Of a DNA stretch of 64,000 bases, positions 4,353 through 25,398 are shown in pieces. Numbering within the stretch: position 1 is the first letter of the stretch; every line of letters starts with the position of its first letter. Location: assembly GCF_000970045.1 (NCBI RefSeq), contig NZ_CP009505.1, forward strand, positions 682,001 through 746,000, given 5' to 3'. A model generated the notes under the pieces. The model saw only the letters and a list, made by a program, of their open reading frames with translations, searched no databases and was not told the origin of the DNA. Position numbers and translations under genes: made by a program. Origin of the DNA: Methanosarcina sp. MTP4. GTDB taxonomy: Archaea; Halobacteriota; Methanosarcinia; Methanosarcinales; Methanosarcinaceae.

Positions 4353-5418
4353 ACATGCCTTTTTATTCCGGGATTCATATTTAAAAAAAAGTTGCCTGTA
4401 AAACACAGGCAATGTGGTTAATTTGGCATGAAAGTACCGCCGATTTCGCACACCGGGTCCTCATTCAAAATTTCTGGTTATATTGGGACTCAACATCACG
4501 TTTTTCTCCTGCTAAATTGATGACAGGGTCCGGAATGTGAACTTGAGGATGCTACGTCCTCACGTAATGTTAGTGTCCTCCTTCCCTACAATAGCAAATA
4601 TTTCGCTAATTATTGAGATTCGCTCATCAACTGAGAATGCTTCACTTTCAACAATCTTCCTCTTTCAACAATCTTCCTCTTTTGAACTTCTCACCTAGCA
4701 CTTGACGTAATAGACATTAATGGTCTGAACAAAAATTATTCTCTTCTCATCGAATCTTTATTCGAAAAACTTGAGAGAATAGGTGTAAAGCCTGTTAGAT
4801 ACCTGAAAATCCGTACTTCCTAAATCCAGTTCTTTATATTCGGTTGTTATAAATAGAAACTTATATATTCATTATGTATGTCTACATGTTTCACGTGCAT
4901 AAATTTTATATATTATAAACAGTTTTACTGCATTGTCTCACTCAATAACAAGCCTTTACGTCTTAATCCCCGCGAAAAGTAGCCGTCCGACATATAAGCT
5001 TTTTGGGAACTGGGGTTTCTGATCTCTCTATTCCTGGTGCTCCCCTTTCGAAAATCAACGGCGTTGATTCTGTAAACAGCGTGACGTTACTATTAACACT
5101 GTTTATTTTGCAAGCCTCTTGTTTTAATTAGCAACCATCTAATTTTTGAGTCGGATGTCTTCACATGGGGTTCTTTAATTTTGCACCGATTATTAATTAA
5201 ATAGAATATTATTGATTTTTTAATATTCGTGTTTATTTTTGTAGGGGCGCTGCTGAATCACTCTGCTTCGTTTTTCCGATGACGGTTAGTATATCTATTT
5301 TTGAAACGTATAACTGATTGCTTTCTGTGAGATATGGAGAAGATCCGGATCCTTCCCCTGCATACCTTTTCAGATGAATATGTGCAGTAGCATATGTAAA
5401 AGAATCAGAGGTGCAAAA
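4353..5418 (+). other. Long leader region of the mtpCAP operon
   Basis: One kilobase without a supported gene. It holds two TATA-like core promoters near 4855-4922. If either is used, the mRNA has a leader of roughly 480-540 bases, which fits the long 5' leaders known for Methanosarcina methyltransferase operons. MsrH probably acts somewhere here; I see no obvious operator palindrome. Confidence 0.4.
4855..4922 (+). promoter_or_regulatory. Tandem TATA/BRE-like elements upstream of mtpC
   Basis: GAAACTTATATATTC (from 4857) has the purine-rich BRE plus TATA form of an archaeal core promoter; TTTTATATATTATAAAC follows about 50 bases later. Assignment to mtpC is by position only. Confidence 0.35.
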
Positions 5419-13327: not shown

Positions 13328-13596
13328 TCTATACTTGCCCAGCTTTAAAATCTGGAATTTTTTGCCTCAAAATGAAAGGCAATAACCAAATAGAATTCTG
13401 AAAACTAAAGCTGGATGAGTATAAGAAGGAATGGAAATTCATGTTAAAAAGGATCATCAGGCCAAAGAAGATGTAAAAAATAGATTACTAAAAAAATAGA
13501 TTACTAAAAAAATAAAATTACTAAAAAAATAAAATTACTAAAAATATGGGGAATATGAAGTCAGAGAATATGATGTCCTATGAAGGGGGTAATTGC

Positions 13597-15001: not shown

Positions 15002-15483
15002 GCAGCCGAAAATGTTTCAATTTCTTCATTTTTGGCTCGTTTTCAATATTTTTTGATTTTTTCGAATGTAGTGTGAATTTCAGTTTTTTTAGCTTTGCTT
15101 TTAGCCGGAGGGCCGAGTTTTCGAATTTTGTTTTTTGCTCCGAAATTCGGCGTTTTAAATGTCCTTGCATCAGAGTCAAAAAAAGTTAAGAATAGTTGGA
15201 TAAGAGTTGAATTGAGAGGTCAGGATTTCCTCTCAATTAAAGGGGTTATATCATTTTGGGGTTGCTATTTTAAGTTTACTTTTCCGTTTTTCAGGTTCGC
15301 ATGAACTTACTATTATATAATTGATTTTTAATAATATTTACTTTTTTTAATATTCAAATATATCAGTAGACTAAAAACATTTGATTAATATTATATTGCA
15401 TGGTAAATATCTCGATTTGGGGATATATGGATTAGCGATTCGGGTTTTTAGAACAGTTTCTCCCCCGGTCAACGGCGCGGTGT

Positions 15484-15641
15484 TCTTCGGGAGCTACAAA
15501 AGCCTGGTCCCAGGACCTTCGGGCGGGTTAGGTCGAAGGGTTCAGGGGGTTGAGGACGGGTTCGGGAAAAGAAAAAGGGAAGGAGAGGGGAGTGAGGGGG
15601 GACGAAAAGGAGAAGGATGGAGAAAGGGGAGAGGGGCGTTT
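15484..15641. repeat. Dispersed repeat copy A
   Basis: Contains the family landmarks AGCTACAAAAGCCTGGTCCCA, CTTCGGGCGGGTTAGGTCGA and GGACGGGTTCGGGAAAAG, then a purine-rich tract. It is noticeably GC-richer than its surroundings. Confidence 0.8.
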
Positions 15642-15746
15642 TGGATTTAATTTTCATGATATAGGTGATGTTCAAATCTCGGTTGATGTGCGTATAACAA
15701 TAATCATCTGAATAATCACAATGATGGGAAATAATAATGGGGAGAA

Positions 15747-15772
15747 TCCGTGATGAATCTGTTCATCACGGA
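15747..15772. other. Perfect 11-bp hairpin
   Basis: TCCGTGATGAA (15747-15757) and TTCATCACGGA (15762-15772) enclose a four-base loop TCTG. No T run follows directly, and no nearby gene explains it as a terminator. Confidence 0.6.
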
Positions 15773-16640
15773 CTTTCACGCTAAAAAGAGTAAGTTACTG
15801 ACAAACGCAGACCGGGAAGTGGACAGAGGAAAATGGCAACAAGGAAAATGAAATGGGTTTTCAGGCTCCGATTCAGGTCGGGTCTCAAGGAGATGAGGAT
15901 CCAGCAAGAAAAAAGGCCTTCTTTTTTAGCATAAAGAATTAAAGAATCCCTCTAACTGATTTATGATTTTTTTAAGTGATTAATGGGAATTTTAGAGCTA
16001 AATGTTGGAATCCAGAATCCTTCTATTTGCTCTACGAATTGACGACTATTTAAAAATATTTCATAAAATGAGTATGCCCAGGATGTGCAGCATCTCTTAT
16101 GTACAGCATTCTGGACATGTGTGAAGGAATTGCATAATTTAATATTTTAGTTTACTTGTCGTTATCCTATAATCGGAAAGACCAAGTTGAAGTCAATATC
16201 AACAATGATAGAGTCTTTAATCATCACAACCAGTATCAAAGAATTTAATACGTATAATTTCTGCTGTTTTGAGATCATGCATAAACCTCCTATAAAAATT
16301 CCTTTTCCAAAGATATGCATTTTTCAACTATACGGGTACAAAAACAGCATGTGGGAATAGGAAACTTAATCATTCTTTGACTAATATACTATATCATTTC
16401 ATAATTTGGATATTATATCAGTTGGAATGATTTTTATGGGCTCTTCGCTGTTTCGAGTGGGCAATTACATTCATTTCCTAAATCAAAGTAACATGTATGC
16501 GATTTAGAAACATTTGCTGTTGAAAATCAAATTCATTCTTGATGCTTCTATCTTTAGCCTGGTTACTTTCTAACCAAGCAATTATTTTCGACCCATAAAA
16601 AACAGCGCAAAGCTTTCTTATATTGTTAAGTGACTAACAA

Positions 16641-16780
16641 GCATACGGATATTAAAGAACAATATAGCCACTACAGCTACATGCTGTTTTAGTTGTATAG
16701 AATTTCTGGTAATCTGGCAATTATCAGAAATTCTGACTTTTGGTATTTACATAGCGTCCACCCTTTCCATCTTTTTTAGT
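16641..16780 (+). ncRNA. Candidate small RNA, copy 1
   Basis: Shares about 130 bases with 17125-17270. Common parts are ATTAAAGAACAATATAG, CTACAGCTACATGCTG and TTTAGTTGTAT, then an inverted repeat with arms 16699-16708 and 16725-16734 (AGAATTTCTG/CAGAAATTCT), then a T run CTTTTTTAG near 16771. A TATA-like TTATATTG lies about 30 bases before the conserved start. No frame is shared, so an RNA is more likely than a protein; a non-autonomous mobile repeat is the alternative. Confidence 0.4.
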
Positions 16781-17124
16781 TTATCTTATGTGTTTATTAT
16801 TATTTAACCTTTAGTTTTAAAATTATATTAATAAGTTTGTTATGTATTAACTGCTTTATTTTTTAAACATTAATTTTTCCAAAATTAAATTAAAACTTTA
16901 ATATATATCATCGCTCTTTAGTTTGAATTTTATATTAAAGCCTATCCGAAAAGTGCTGAGACCTAATTAATTTATGCAAAATGTAATGTACAAAATCGGA
17001 AAGGATTCTCGGATATTTAGATCTATTGTAACTTTTACAACATGCCATTATTAACACTTTTCAAACACCCAATTTAAAATCTTAATTAATATATTTATTT
17101 TGCACAACCTTTTATACTTTTGAA

Positions 17125-17270
17125 TATATACGGAAATATGGAAATTAAAGAACAATATAGCTACTACAGCTACATGCTGTTTTAGTTGTATAGAATTTCT
17201 GGTAATCTGGCAATTGCCAGAAATTCTAACTTTTGGTATTCACATAATATCCGCCCTTATCACCTTTTTT
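17125..17270 (+). ncRNA. Candidate small RNA, copy 2
   Basis: Paralog of 16641-16780. The inverted repeat is extended to 11 bp here (17192-17202 and 17217-17227): the extra pair G/C is a compensated change (copy 1 has GGTAAT...TTATC; copy 2 GGTAAT...TTGCC), which favours selection on pairing. TTTTATACTTTTG at 17110 is a plausible TATA box, and CACCTTTTTTAGG ends the similarity like an archaeal T-rich terminator. Confidence 0.4.
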
Positions 17271-17624
17271 AGGATAATTGCTTTATCTTATGTGCTTATT
17301 ACTTTTGACTCTTTTTAGTTTCTTCCAATAATTTTTAATTCTCAGCCAATAGTTTGTCATTATTTATAATTCCCTCATGAACTTCTACTAGATATTTCTT
17401 AAATTCTCTGGTAACTCCGTACTTCTCAAGTCGGCATACGAATAAAGGAGAATATAGAAAATAGGGTTGTTTGTCCGACCTTCATCTCGATTGACATTAG
17501 TTTTTTACTTGTGTTTAGAAGCAATGAATCTGTAAAACCTTCTACAGGGATGCATTCCACACCAAGAAGGGGGAAGTTTAGGATTGTTCAGGCTTTGTTA
17601 TAAATCTCCTCACCAGTATGCCTG

Positions 17625-17786
17625 AGGAATCTGGAGCTTCGTGTGTTCCTTGCATCTGCGGATCGGTTTACAAACCGGTTTATAGGTCGAAGGATTCAGG
17701 GGCTTAGAGGATGGGTTAGGGAAGAGGAATAAAGGAGTGAGGGGGACGAAAAGGAGACATGAGGAGAAGTGGGAGAAAGGGAGGAT
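17625..17786. repeat. Dispersed repeat copy B
   Basis: Contains GGAGCTTCG, TAGGTCGAAGGATTCAGGGG and CTTAGAGGATGGGTTAGGG followed by the purine-rich tract. It directly abuts the 3' end of the gene at 17798. Confidence 0.75.
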
Positions 17787-17797
17787 GACCTTAGAGT

Positions 17798-18742
17798 TTA
17801 ATTCACAAAATTTACAATTGTCCATTTTTTTTTCTCTTCTTCGATGATGTCTTCAAAAACTGTAGATACATTAAATTCGATGGTGGCAATGGAATCAAGA
17901 TGCCTTTTTACTTCCTCCGCCAATGAACTTCCAAAACTGCCGGTTATTATTTCATTCGTATCTTCAATCACAAATTCAAAGCTAAATGAACGTACATTTA
18001 CCCCAGTTAGCTTTCCATAATATGTTACTGTTTCATCAGGCATTTCAGCAACATCACTTATGGCGTCGTATATTCTTTTAGCTAAAGGACTAGTAATCTC
18101 TTTAGTATGAAATCCTTCTGGTACAATCTTGTCATACATTTTTATAGTTGCATTATTTTTATAAATGATCTCTACTAAATTTTGATATTTTTTCATTGAT
18201 CGTATCCCAATCTCTTTACTAATTGCCTTTATGGCTTCCTTGTCATCTTCACAGTCAGTTAATTCATTTAAACAGCAGAAAGCTTTTTTTTGAATAGAAT
18301 TTTCGAGGTGGGGTTGATGACTTGCCAAAATCATCCTAAAAGATCCAGGGGCAGTTGCTATTAAATCTAATTGAGACCAAGCGCAGATCTCTTTTGGTAT
18401 CGCCCCTTTTGCGGTAGGTTTGTCTATCATAGATTGAGAAATTGAGGTCACAACTTCTTGTAAAGCAGAGGTAAACTTTCCAAAAAATGATAATGATATC
18501 CGATGTTTTTGAACTATTTCTCCGTCAAAAACAAAATCAAAAGTATCTATGTTAAGTCTTTCATAAGCTTTTTCTAACTCCTTCAGCAAATATTCTTCTC
18601 TCTCCTTTAAGCTGTAAAGCCCAATTTTTAAAGAAAATTTATCCGGGTATTTCTCAACCAATTGTTCTTTATTTACAATTAACTCATTGAGTTCAGAAAG
18701 TTCTTCTTGTATTATAGAGGGGCGCCTAACTTTTTCAATCAC
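17798..18742 (-). CDS. Partner protein of the nucleotidyltransferase cassette
   Basis: A 314-residue soluble protein that I do not recognise. Residues 8-65 are rich in Glu, Leu and Lys and look like a coiled coil (ELSELNELIVNKEQLVEKY). The middle part contains HRISLSFFGKFTSALQEVV and APGSFRMILA; the C-terminal part (FEFVIEDTNEIITGSFG) looks beta-rich. It starts with GTG inside the end of the nucleotidyltransferase gene, overlapping by 8 bases, with GGAGGT 6-7 bases upstream, so the two are translationally coupled. The pairing suggests a two-component toxin-antitoxin or defence module, but function is not shown. Confidence 0.75.
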   Translation of the reverse strand: MIEKVRRPSIIQEELSELNELIVNKEQLVEKYPDKFSLKIGLYSLKEREEYLLKELEKAYERLNIDTFDFVFDGEIVQKHRISLSFFGKFTSALQEVVTSISQSMIDKPTAKGAIPKEICAWSQLDLIATAPGSFRMILASHQPHLENSIQKKAFCCLNELTDCEDDKEAIKAISKEIGIRSMKKYQNLVEIIYKNNATIKMYDKIVPEGFHTKEITSPLAKRIYDAISDVAEMPDETVTYYGKLTGVNVRSFSFEFVIEDTNEIITGSFGSSLAEEVKRHLDSIATIEFNVSTVFEDIIEEEKKKWTIVNFVN

Positions 18743-19268
18743 TCCCTATACCTCCAACACTATCTATATCGAAAGAACTATCTGATAAATCAAACTCAAT
18801 TATGCCCTTTGGATTATTTTTCCGGTCATGAGTAAACCATTTTGACCAATACTCTATGTTTTTTATCATATCCTCGTACAATTCAGAGAGTTCGGGTGGG
18901 TATATAATAATAAAGTAGACATCACATTTACATTCAGATTTTGCCCATTCTTTATCGATAATTTTGTTAAAATCTTCCTTTATTTCTTCATAAGATTCAT
19001 CTAGTTCAATACCACTGATGTGAGTTACAAAATCAATGTCATTGGGATCTATCTTATGTGTTGTATAACTTCCGTTTACCCATTGTAGAGTAGCTATATT
19101 GAGAGGTATAAGTAAAGAACAATATCTAATATACCCATCAAAGATTTTTTCTCGAGTAACCGATTCCGGAAAACCATTCACAAAACACATCTGAAATTCT
19201 GTTAATTTTGGTTTTATGAATCCTAGTGGTAAGTTTCCATTATCTTCAAATTCTGGAATCGCACTCAT
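18735..19268 (-). CDS. DUF6932-like nucleotidyltransferase-fold protein
   Basis: A 177-residue protein of the minimal nucleotidyltransferase type. The start MSAIPEFEDNGNLPLG resembles DUF6932 proteins. The catalytic pattern is intact: Gly66-Ser67 in VNGSY, Asp77 and Asp79 in DPNDIDFV, and a third acidic residue Asp116 in CKCDVYFI on the next strand. It would therefore be able to transfer a nucleotide to a protein or RNA target, as MenT/AbiEii-type and MntA proteins do, or be an antitoxin. GGGTGAGAGG precedes the ATG. It is the first gene of a two-gene overlapping cassette in an accessory region. Confidence 0.75.
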   Translation of the reverse strand: MSAIPEFEDNGNLPLGFIKPKLTEFQMCFVNGFPESVTREKIFDGYIRYCSLLIPLNIATLQWVNGSYTTHKIDPNDIDFVTHISGIELDESYEEIKEDFNKIIDKEWAKSECKCDVYFIIIYPPELSELYEDMIKNIEYWSKWFTHDRKNNPKGIIEFDLSDSSFDIDSVGGIGSD

Positions 19269-19359: not shown

Positions 19360-19562
19360 TCCCGGTGCACTGAGCTTCTCTTCATGATGTCCAGTCTGGC
19401 TCCCTCCCTTCCTAAAAATCCGGCCTTCATATTTGCCCTACATTCTCTTTTCTTGAATTGGTGCGTGTGTTTCTTCATGCTCCCTCAGTCCAGGCTCTCA
19501 GGGGCTTTCGGGAGAAAGGCAGCAGCCAGATCGGAGGGCTTGAGCTTCTCAGGGATCTTCTC
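19360..19562. repeat. Dispersed repeat copy C (5' part)
   Basis: Matches the left part of copy F at 25075: TTCATGCTCCCT, CAGGCTCTCAGGGGCTTTCG, CAGCCAGATCGGAGGG and CTGAGCTTCTC. It is cut off after TCTCAGGGATC, before the AGCTACAAAAGCC segment. A 117-codon frame across it is spurious. Confidence 0.75.
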
Positions 19563-21090: not shown

Positions 21091-21740
21091 CTTTTTCTTT
21101 CTCTTTCTCTTTTAATCAATCTTTTTTGCAGTTTCATCTATTTCCAAGAAAATAGGTCTATATACCATTTCTGTAAATCCACAAATGCTCACTCAGTCCA
21201 GGCTCTCAGGGACTTTCAGGAGCCAAGCAGCAGGCAGATCGGAGGGACTGAGCTTCTCCAGAAGCTACAAAAGCCTGGTCCCAGAGCTTCGTTTAATCTT
21301 TGCAGTTGTGAATAGGTTTACAAAAAGGTTTTTAGCAATGCATTTGTGTTCGGGCCGAATTATATACGAATATTAAGATATTATTAATCATATACTAAAA
21401 CGAGATATAAAACCACAATCTACCAGCATTTTATCCGGATGAATAGTATGATTTCTATGGTCTGAAGGTTAAGGTTGTGAATTGAGAATTTCAGGCAGGA
21501 TTACAACATGGGTTTTAAGGTGAAGTTCTAAGATACATTTTAATTTCTGTGGAGAGCATGGGGGATTAAAGTATGAAGTGAGAGGTTAAATCCAAAAGTA
21601 AAGCTGAAAAAGAATGGTGAATTATTTGTTTTAAGTGGAAACTGTGCAATCCCTTATCATTTAGGAGTTTTAATATATCAATCGCATAAACTGGATGAAA
21701 AAATGACTTCTAATGTATCAATCTATAAGGTTCTGATTTT
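21091..21740. other. Spacer with dispersed repeat
   Basis: No supported gene. It contains repeat copy D at 21187-21292; the rest is AT-rich and probably contains the promoter of the TPR gene that follows. Confidence 0.5.
21187..21292. repeat. Dispersed repeat copy D
   Basis: Carries CTCAGTCCAGGCTCTCAGGG, GCAGGCAGATCGGAGGG, CTGAGCTTCTCCAGAAGC and TACAAAAGCCTGGTCCCAGA. It joins the left part seen in copy C to the right part seen in copy A, which shows that all are pieces of one element. Confidence 0.8.
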
Positions 21741-24135: not shown

Positions 24136-24250
24136 CGTTAAGTCGAAAGTTTCAGGGGCTTAGAGGACGGGTTCGAGAAAAGAAAAGGTAGAGGGAGAGA
24201 GGAGCAAGGGTAACAAAAAGGAGAAGGGGGGAGAAAGGGGAGAAGGGCCG
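24136..24250. repeat. Dispersed repeat copy (right part)
   Basis: Reads GCTCGTTAAGTCGAAAGTTT, CAGGGGCTTAGAGGACGGG and TTCGAGAAAAGAAAAGG, then the purine-rich tract; the right half of the element. Confidence 0.75.
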
Positions 24251-25086: not shown

Positions 25087-25398
25087 GCTTCTCCAGGAAC
25101 TGCCCGACTTGGCTGCCTCCCATCTTAAAAACGGCCTTCAGATTTACCCTACATTCGCTTTTTTTGAATGGGTGCTTATAGTTGTTTTTCTTCATGCTCC
25201 CTTAATTTATGCTCTCAGGGGCTAGGAGCCAGGCAGCCGCCAGATCGGAGGGGCTGAGCTTTTCCGGGAGGTACAAAGGCCTGGTCCCGGAGTTTCGGGC
25301 GAGTTAGGTCGAAGGGTTCAGAGGCTTAGAGGGCGGGTTCGGGGGGAGGGAGAAAGGAACATGATGTCGAAAAGGAGAAAGGGGAAAAAGGGGAAATG
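25075..25398. repeat. Dispersed repeat copy F (longest)
   Basis: The most complete copy: TTGAGCTTCTCCAGGAACTG, the TTCATGCTCCCT segment, GCCAGATCGGAGGGGCTGAG, GGTACAAAGGCCTGGTCCCG, TTAGGTCGAAGGGTTCAGAG, GGCGGGTTCGG and the purine-rich tract. The insertion sequence at 25399 sits in or at the end of this tract. Confidence 0.8.

Follow-up and report, generated by a model that had tools for sequence, protein, structure and literature searches.

Two near-identical copies of a structured unit stand in one spacer of the Methanosarcina sp. MTP4 genome, and their sequence suggests, with a probability of roughly 0.6, that they are candidate sibling small non-coding RNA genes, arisen by duplication, served by different promoters and placed under the control of two signals. 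Paralogous structured RNA genes are the best reading of the repeat, and the pair is best taken as restricted to this lineage; it lies in a hotspot next to a candidate defence operon. What we infer goes further: that the copies are transcribed and terminated, how the RNA acts, and that each copy is controlled separately. The features are listed below by their positions in the window, the whole 64,000-nucleotide stretch of DNA that was analysed.

16439–16614, no strand: MITE-like repeat 1, outside the putative RNA; stops three bases short of the TATA-like box of copy 1
16617–16624, + strand: TATA-like box of copy 1, TTATAT at 16618 (sequence, spacing test)
16643–16817, + strand: copy 1 of the duplicated unit, putative RNA about 16647–16777 (repeat, fold; ends placed from the TATA box and T-run)
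16662–16698, + strand: copy 1 hairpin P1 (predicted fold)
16699–16734, + strand: copy 1 hairpin P2, 15 pairs, 6-base loop (inverted repeat, predicted fold)
16772–16777, + strand: T-run, putative terminator of copy 1 (sequence)
16939–17066, no strand: MITE-like repeat 2, located between the copies and decayed at its right end, outside the putative RNA (sequence matches)
17075–17130, + strand: promoter module of copy 2, common to PEF-CTERM gene upstream regions (sequence matches)
17110–17117, + strand: TATA-like box of copy 2, TTTTATAC at 17110 (sequence, spacing test)
17136–17321, + strand: copy 2 of the duplicated unit, putative RNA about 17140–17270 (repeat, fold; ends placed from the TATA box and T-run)
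17155–17191, + strand: copy 2 hairpin P1 (predicted fold)
17192–17227, + strand: copy 2 hairpin P2, 15 pairs, 6-base loop (inverted repeat, predicted fold)
17265–17270, + strand: T-run, putative terminator of copy 2 (sequence)

The repeat unit and its predicted fold

The original prediction of two copies sharing their 5′ part is borne out by an ungapped repeat of 137 bases (16643–16779 and 17136–17272), in which 123 positions match and 14 differ. The differences fall at 3 of 80 positions in columns 1–80 and at 11 of 55 in columns 81–135 (Fisher p 0.003, for a split chosen post hoc). Within the more divergent part, the stretch of columns 112–128 differs between the copies. Either a functional 5′ part that includes both hairpins or a gene-conversion patch would fit the low divergence of columns 1–80. 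Upstream of the first shared base, identity drops immediately to about 25%. Downstream, a weaker similarity passes the T-runs and reaches 16817 and 17321 (83% over 186 aligned columns, with a 9-base indel between the copies).

The 4.21-Mb genome (4,211,468 bases) holds two copies of the unit, from which we excluded two extra matches that are the complements of the hairpins themselves; at an E limit of 10, no further match longer than 24 bases turned up. Upon comparison by blastn with 111 family genomes, the genome’s own included, no full-length match appeared in the other 110, and a match in G046 covers 22 bases only. The covariance search among relatives that had been proposed, run with an RNA model (R1) built from the pair and under stricter filters, matched 1 of the 111, its own. 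Neither exact patterns of the unit in viral contigs and genome contigs, which diverged relatives would escape, nor a distant blastn against plasmids and phages gave a match, in collections that may omit records very close to the window’s genome.

On the + strand, copy 1 folds at −32.2 kcal/mol (z −3.4 against shuffles) and copy 2 at −40.7 kcal/mol (z −6.1); the corresponding z values on the − strand are −1.9 and −2.9, and the putative RNA ends give −3.6 and −5.6. Among 170 scan windows on both strands of the spacer (15200–17800), the 13 with the lowest z all overlap the copies, followed by one starting at 16302. In the predicted structure P1 lies 5′ of the 15-pair P2, and a closing helix P0 (columns 9–15 with 96–102), missing from several of the folds, is possible.

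The inverted repeat, which has 15 pairs and a 6-base loop, was correctly foreseen in both copies, as was the T-rich end, which corresponds to the T-runs at 16772–16777 and 17265–17270. The ‘compensated extra pair’ ascribed to the inverted repeat was an overstatement, since none of the 36 pairs in the drawn structure is changed on both sides, and RNAalifold likewise finds none. Rather, 33 pairs are invariant, two vary on one side, and one, in P1, is lost in copy 1. Both one-sided changes (G-U/G-C and U-A/U-G) lie in P2 and retain pairing through G-U, which weakly fits a + strand RNA. Covariation is not to be expected here, because just two sequences exist. An Rfam search of the window reported one tRNA and no other family; a known Rfam family was rejected for the copies, where the best sub-threshold match reached 24.8 bits against a gathering threshold of 85.6. 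A leader or riboswitch was rejected as well, there being no plausible gene close downstream on the + strand, and the C/D and H/ACA guide RNA identities were weighed by eye only.

Putative promoters and upstream DNA

A TATA-like box precedes each copy, as predicted, but the predicted distance of about 30 bases to the shared start did not hold: the boxes lie 24–25 bases 5′ of that start and about 29–30 bases 5′ of a shared GG. Such a box 22–32 bases upstream is found at 5.2% of spacer positions, for a motif picked after the sites had been seen. Judged by this spacing, the shared unit should begin at the expected transcription start.

The DNA upstream of the two copies is otherwise unrelated. With MITE-like repeat 1 kept, 845 of 1000 shuffles reach the alignment score of the two regions; with the repeat removed in four ways, 609, 839, 664 and 594 of 1000 do so, and for the TATA stretch alone 379 of 1000. 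None of these alignments rises above shuffles, and the idea that the two upstream regions descend from one ancestor was rejected. The putative promoter of copy 1 directly abuts MITE-like repeat 1, and this repeat, lying upstream of the TATA-like box, may have broken it.

The promoter region of copy 2 has relatives elsewhere. The segment 17075–17130 shares 93% identity with a site 2.5 Mb away in this genome, whose PEF-CTERM gene lies near genome position 3247375; the DNA around the segment is 83–93% identical to sites in G001, G002 (two) and G095. Conservation of the module thereby extends to five PEF-CTERM loci; of the four genomes that hold them, one is from another genus, and G003, a third genome of the same genus, lacks the module. 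Its similarity spans about 50–60 bases and stops just past the TATA-like box. In the same-genus search, the match at E 1.3e-10 was followed only at E 0.036 by the next; for a short module pattern with up to 3 mismatches, control hits were about as frequent as weak hits, and only exact hits were counted. All five sites lie upstream of a small gene whose product ends in PEFPTVALP.AAILGLVFIFGR.KE, and all three of the five small proteins that were scanned belong to TIGR03024, PEF-CTERM. Four of the sites are directly 3′ of a gene for a membrane protein of about 800 residues; the fifth follows an insertion-sequence-like stretch beside the first G002 copy. The module of about 50 bases stands before the PEF-CTERM surface-protein genes at L056:3376–3431 (−), L057:2363–2415 and 5297–5356 (−), L058:4361–4402 and L059:3942–3994, with a leader of about 300 bases between module and gene.

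Neighbourhood, targets and rival readings

The pair sits in a hotspot 3′ of a DUF1699 gene, where G001 has about 12 kb in place of the window’s 15.1–21.2 kb, with insert genes that resemble, by eye, type I restriction-modification genes. A single repeat, about 270 bases long, recurs in fragments (15483–15637, 17634–17780, 19397–19555, 21185–21335, 24137–24248 and, the fullest, 25110–25378) that share one orientation and separate successive gene stretches; recombination between them may be how this variable site grows. Two of them bound the stretch of about 2 kb that holds the RNA pair, and the longest open frame lying entirely within that stretch has 57 codons. MITE-like repeat 1 bears the end GGCTCTTCGCTGTTT and its inverse and was aligned with counterparts in five other genomes, several of these counterparts being flanked, by eye, by short duplications; MITE-like repeat 2 bears the end AGCCTATCCGAAAAGT. 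The spacer segments holding repeats 1 and 2 have matches in 38 and 32 of the 111 family genomes, counts that include a few matches to other parts of the segments. No useful paper on Methanosarcina MITEs was found, judging by title. Short tandem repeats of a 16–17-base AAAAAATAGATTACTA-like unit occupy 13459–13540. On the − strand, 17798–19268 holds a two-gene operon whose proteins match the PADLOC candidates PDC-M63B and PDC-M63A (DUF6932). G105 carries the same operon, with a 314-aa protein that is 63% identical, adjoined there by a helicase-like gene (by eye); a genome-contig scan found no relatives of the 314-aa protein.

The original prediction had also pointed to antisense matches with mRNA leaders. 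This check, covering a small part of the genome (4 queries against up to 37 regions), yielded no convincing mRNA target above chance. The best pairing joins the copy 2 tail to the start of the DUF1699 gene (z −3.7), and the same tail pairs with the start of the DUF6932 gene at z −2.6. As a group, the tails pair with 34 gene starts at scores hardly above those for gene interiors (p 0.33 and 0.048), nor do they surpass shuffled tails.

Several lines speak for RNA genes: near-identical copies whose + strand folds stand out and whose P2 stays paired through G-U; a TATA-like box equidistant from both despite unrelated upstream DNA; and the low divergence of columns 1–80, the conserved promoter module of copy 2 and the absent coding signal. 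Counting against them are the lack of a homologue outside the genome, the P1 pair lost in copy 1, the MITE-like repeat at copy 1, the missing convincing target and the debris-rich setting. The main rival is a non-functional duplicated remnant, debris in a repeat-rich hotspot, with a hairpin left from a lost element and a module acquired by chance recombination. We consider it unlikely, yet the strongest of the alternatives: MITE-like repeats and long-repeat fragments lie all around, the 110 other family genomes searched hold no full match, and gene conversion could explain the conserved patch beside the 11 of 55 differences in columns 81–135. Against a remnant stand the outlying folds, a P2 left intact by two changes, a TATA-like box equally spaced before both copies and a conserved promoter module properly spaced from copy 2. 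That the unit is two copies of a mobile MITE is scarcely credible. It does lie among MITE-like repeats, but those have many copies, whereas the dozens of copies that the original prediction named as the mark of a MITE proved to be two, matched in full in none of the 110 relatives, and by eye the ends of the unit carry no terminal inverted repeats; a widespread MITE family is refuted by the copy number.

Coding potential deserves separate mention, as the claim that no frame is shared was wrong: gap-free copies share every frame. One of these is stop-free over 57 and 64 codons and stays in frame across the 9-base indel, and being open in both copies it could be read as a duplicated gene for a small hydrophobic protein. 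We hold this very improbable. The frame has no common ATG, GTG or TTG start and contains the 15-pair hairpin; of 1000 shuffles, 114 and 100 have frames as long; among its changed codons, 3 are synonymous and 8 non-synonymous, with no third-position excess; and its translation finds no relatives in Pfam, plasmids or viruses. The corresponding changes are 1 synonymous and 10 non-synonymous in a frame containing TAG, a codon readable as pyrrolysine in Methanosarcina, and 5 and 7 in the third, which has many stops. The shared frames do not resemble coding sequence, and the pattern of change bears no sign of protein selection. More improbable still is that the RNA belongs to PDC-M63, the candidate defence operon next to it. 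Proximity, the match of both operon proteins to PADLOC candidate families and a pairing that the tail of copy 2 might form at the start region of the DUF6932 gene invite the idea, but G105 has the operon without a match to the RNA model, a repeat fragment separates the copies from the operon, and shuffled tails pair with gene starts as well as the real ones.

Proposed mechanism and known systems

Paralogous structured RNA genes thus remain the best reading of what had been predicted as twin small RNAs acting in pairs. Joint action found no support, with no convincing target and no covariation; the unrelated upstream DNA suggests that the copies are regulated separately instead. Under the preferred reading, each copy would be transcribed into a + strand RNA some 130 nt long, laid out as a short 5′ end, P1, the 15-pair P2, a mostly unstructured C- and U-rich tail and the T-run. 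Its exposed loops or tail might base-pair with messenger RNA, by analogy with known Methanosarcina regulatory RNAs. Because the upstream DNA is unrelated, one RNA answering two signals is the likely point of having two genes, and copy 2 would share its signal with PEF-CTERM surface-protein genes. A bolder extension, which we regard as doubtful, makes the pair a cargo module, consisting of RNA only, in a defence hotspot of an archaeon: the RNA gene was duplicated without its promoter, one copy seized a PEF-CTERM promoter, and cell-surface state and another signal now drive the same RNA. If true, this would be an archaeal case of sibling small RNAs where the origin of one promoter is still recognisable.

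Expression of both copies would show a new archaeal RNA gene duplicated and rewired by another gene’s promoter, and a small RNA tied to the PEF-CTERM surface-protein programme. Should they not be expressed, the case would counsel caution in taking repeats in AT-rich spacers for RNA genes.

Bacteria offer well-studied sibling small RNAs, and the candidates resemble PrrF1/2, OmrA/B, AbcR1/2 and the duplicated CsrB in being highly similar genes in one genome, their RNA nature here being putative. Several bacterial pairs are described as standing in tandem (PMC4211561), and differential promoter control of the copies is stated as an advantage of duplicated CsrB (PMC6262261). Transcription and targets or roles are established for the bacterial siblings, whereas the present pair is a prediction from sequence, has an archaeal host and carries putative promoters unrelated in sequence. 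By title, none of the papers listed in a literature search treats an archaeal sibling pair, which is not proof of absence. Among archaeal small RNAs, sRNA162 of Methanosarcina mazei is described as an intergenic RNA acting on mRNAs (PMC3510493); by that description, which mentions no pair, it is intergenic like our candidates. The M. mazei sRNA154 is reported as highly conserved in Methanosarcina and as having an NrpR operator (PMC3177094, PMC5867862), whereas the RNA model of the present pair matches none of the other 110 genomes of the family, and by eye no such operator is seen. By its description, sRNA154 is nevertheless a close likeness: Northern blotting puts this intergenic RNA at about 130 nt (PMC3177094), and its predicted structure has two loops that pair with mRNAs (PMC5867862), to be set beside two intergenic candidates of about 130 nt, by their putative ends, with two predicted hairpins each. 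In M. mazei, such pairing of small RNA loops with mRNAs is described as stabilising the mRNAs or covering ribosome-binding sites (PMC5867862).
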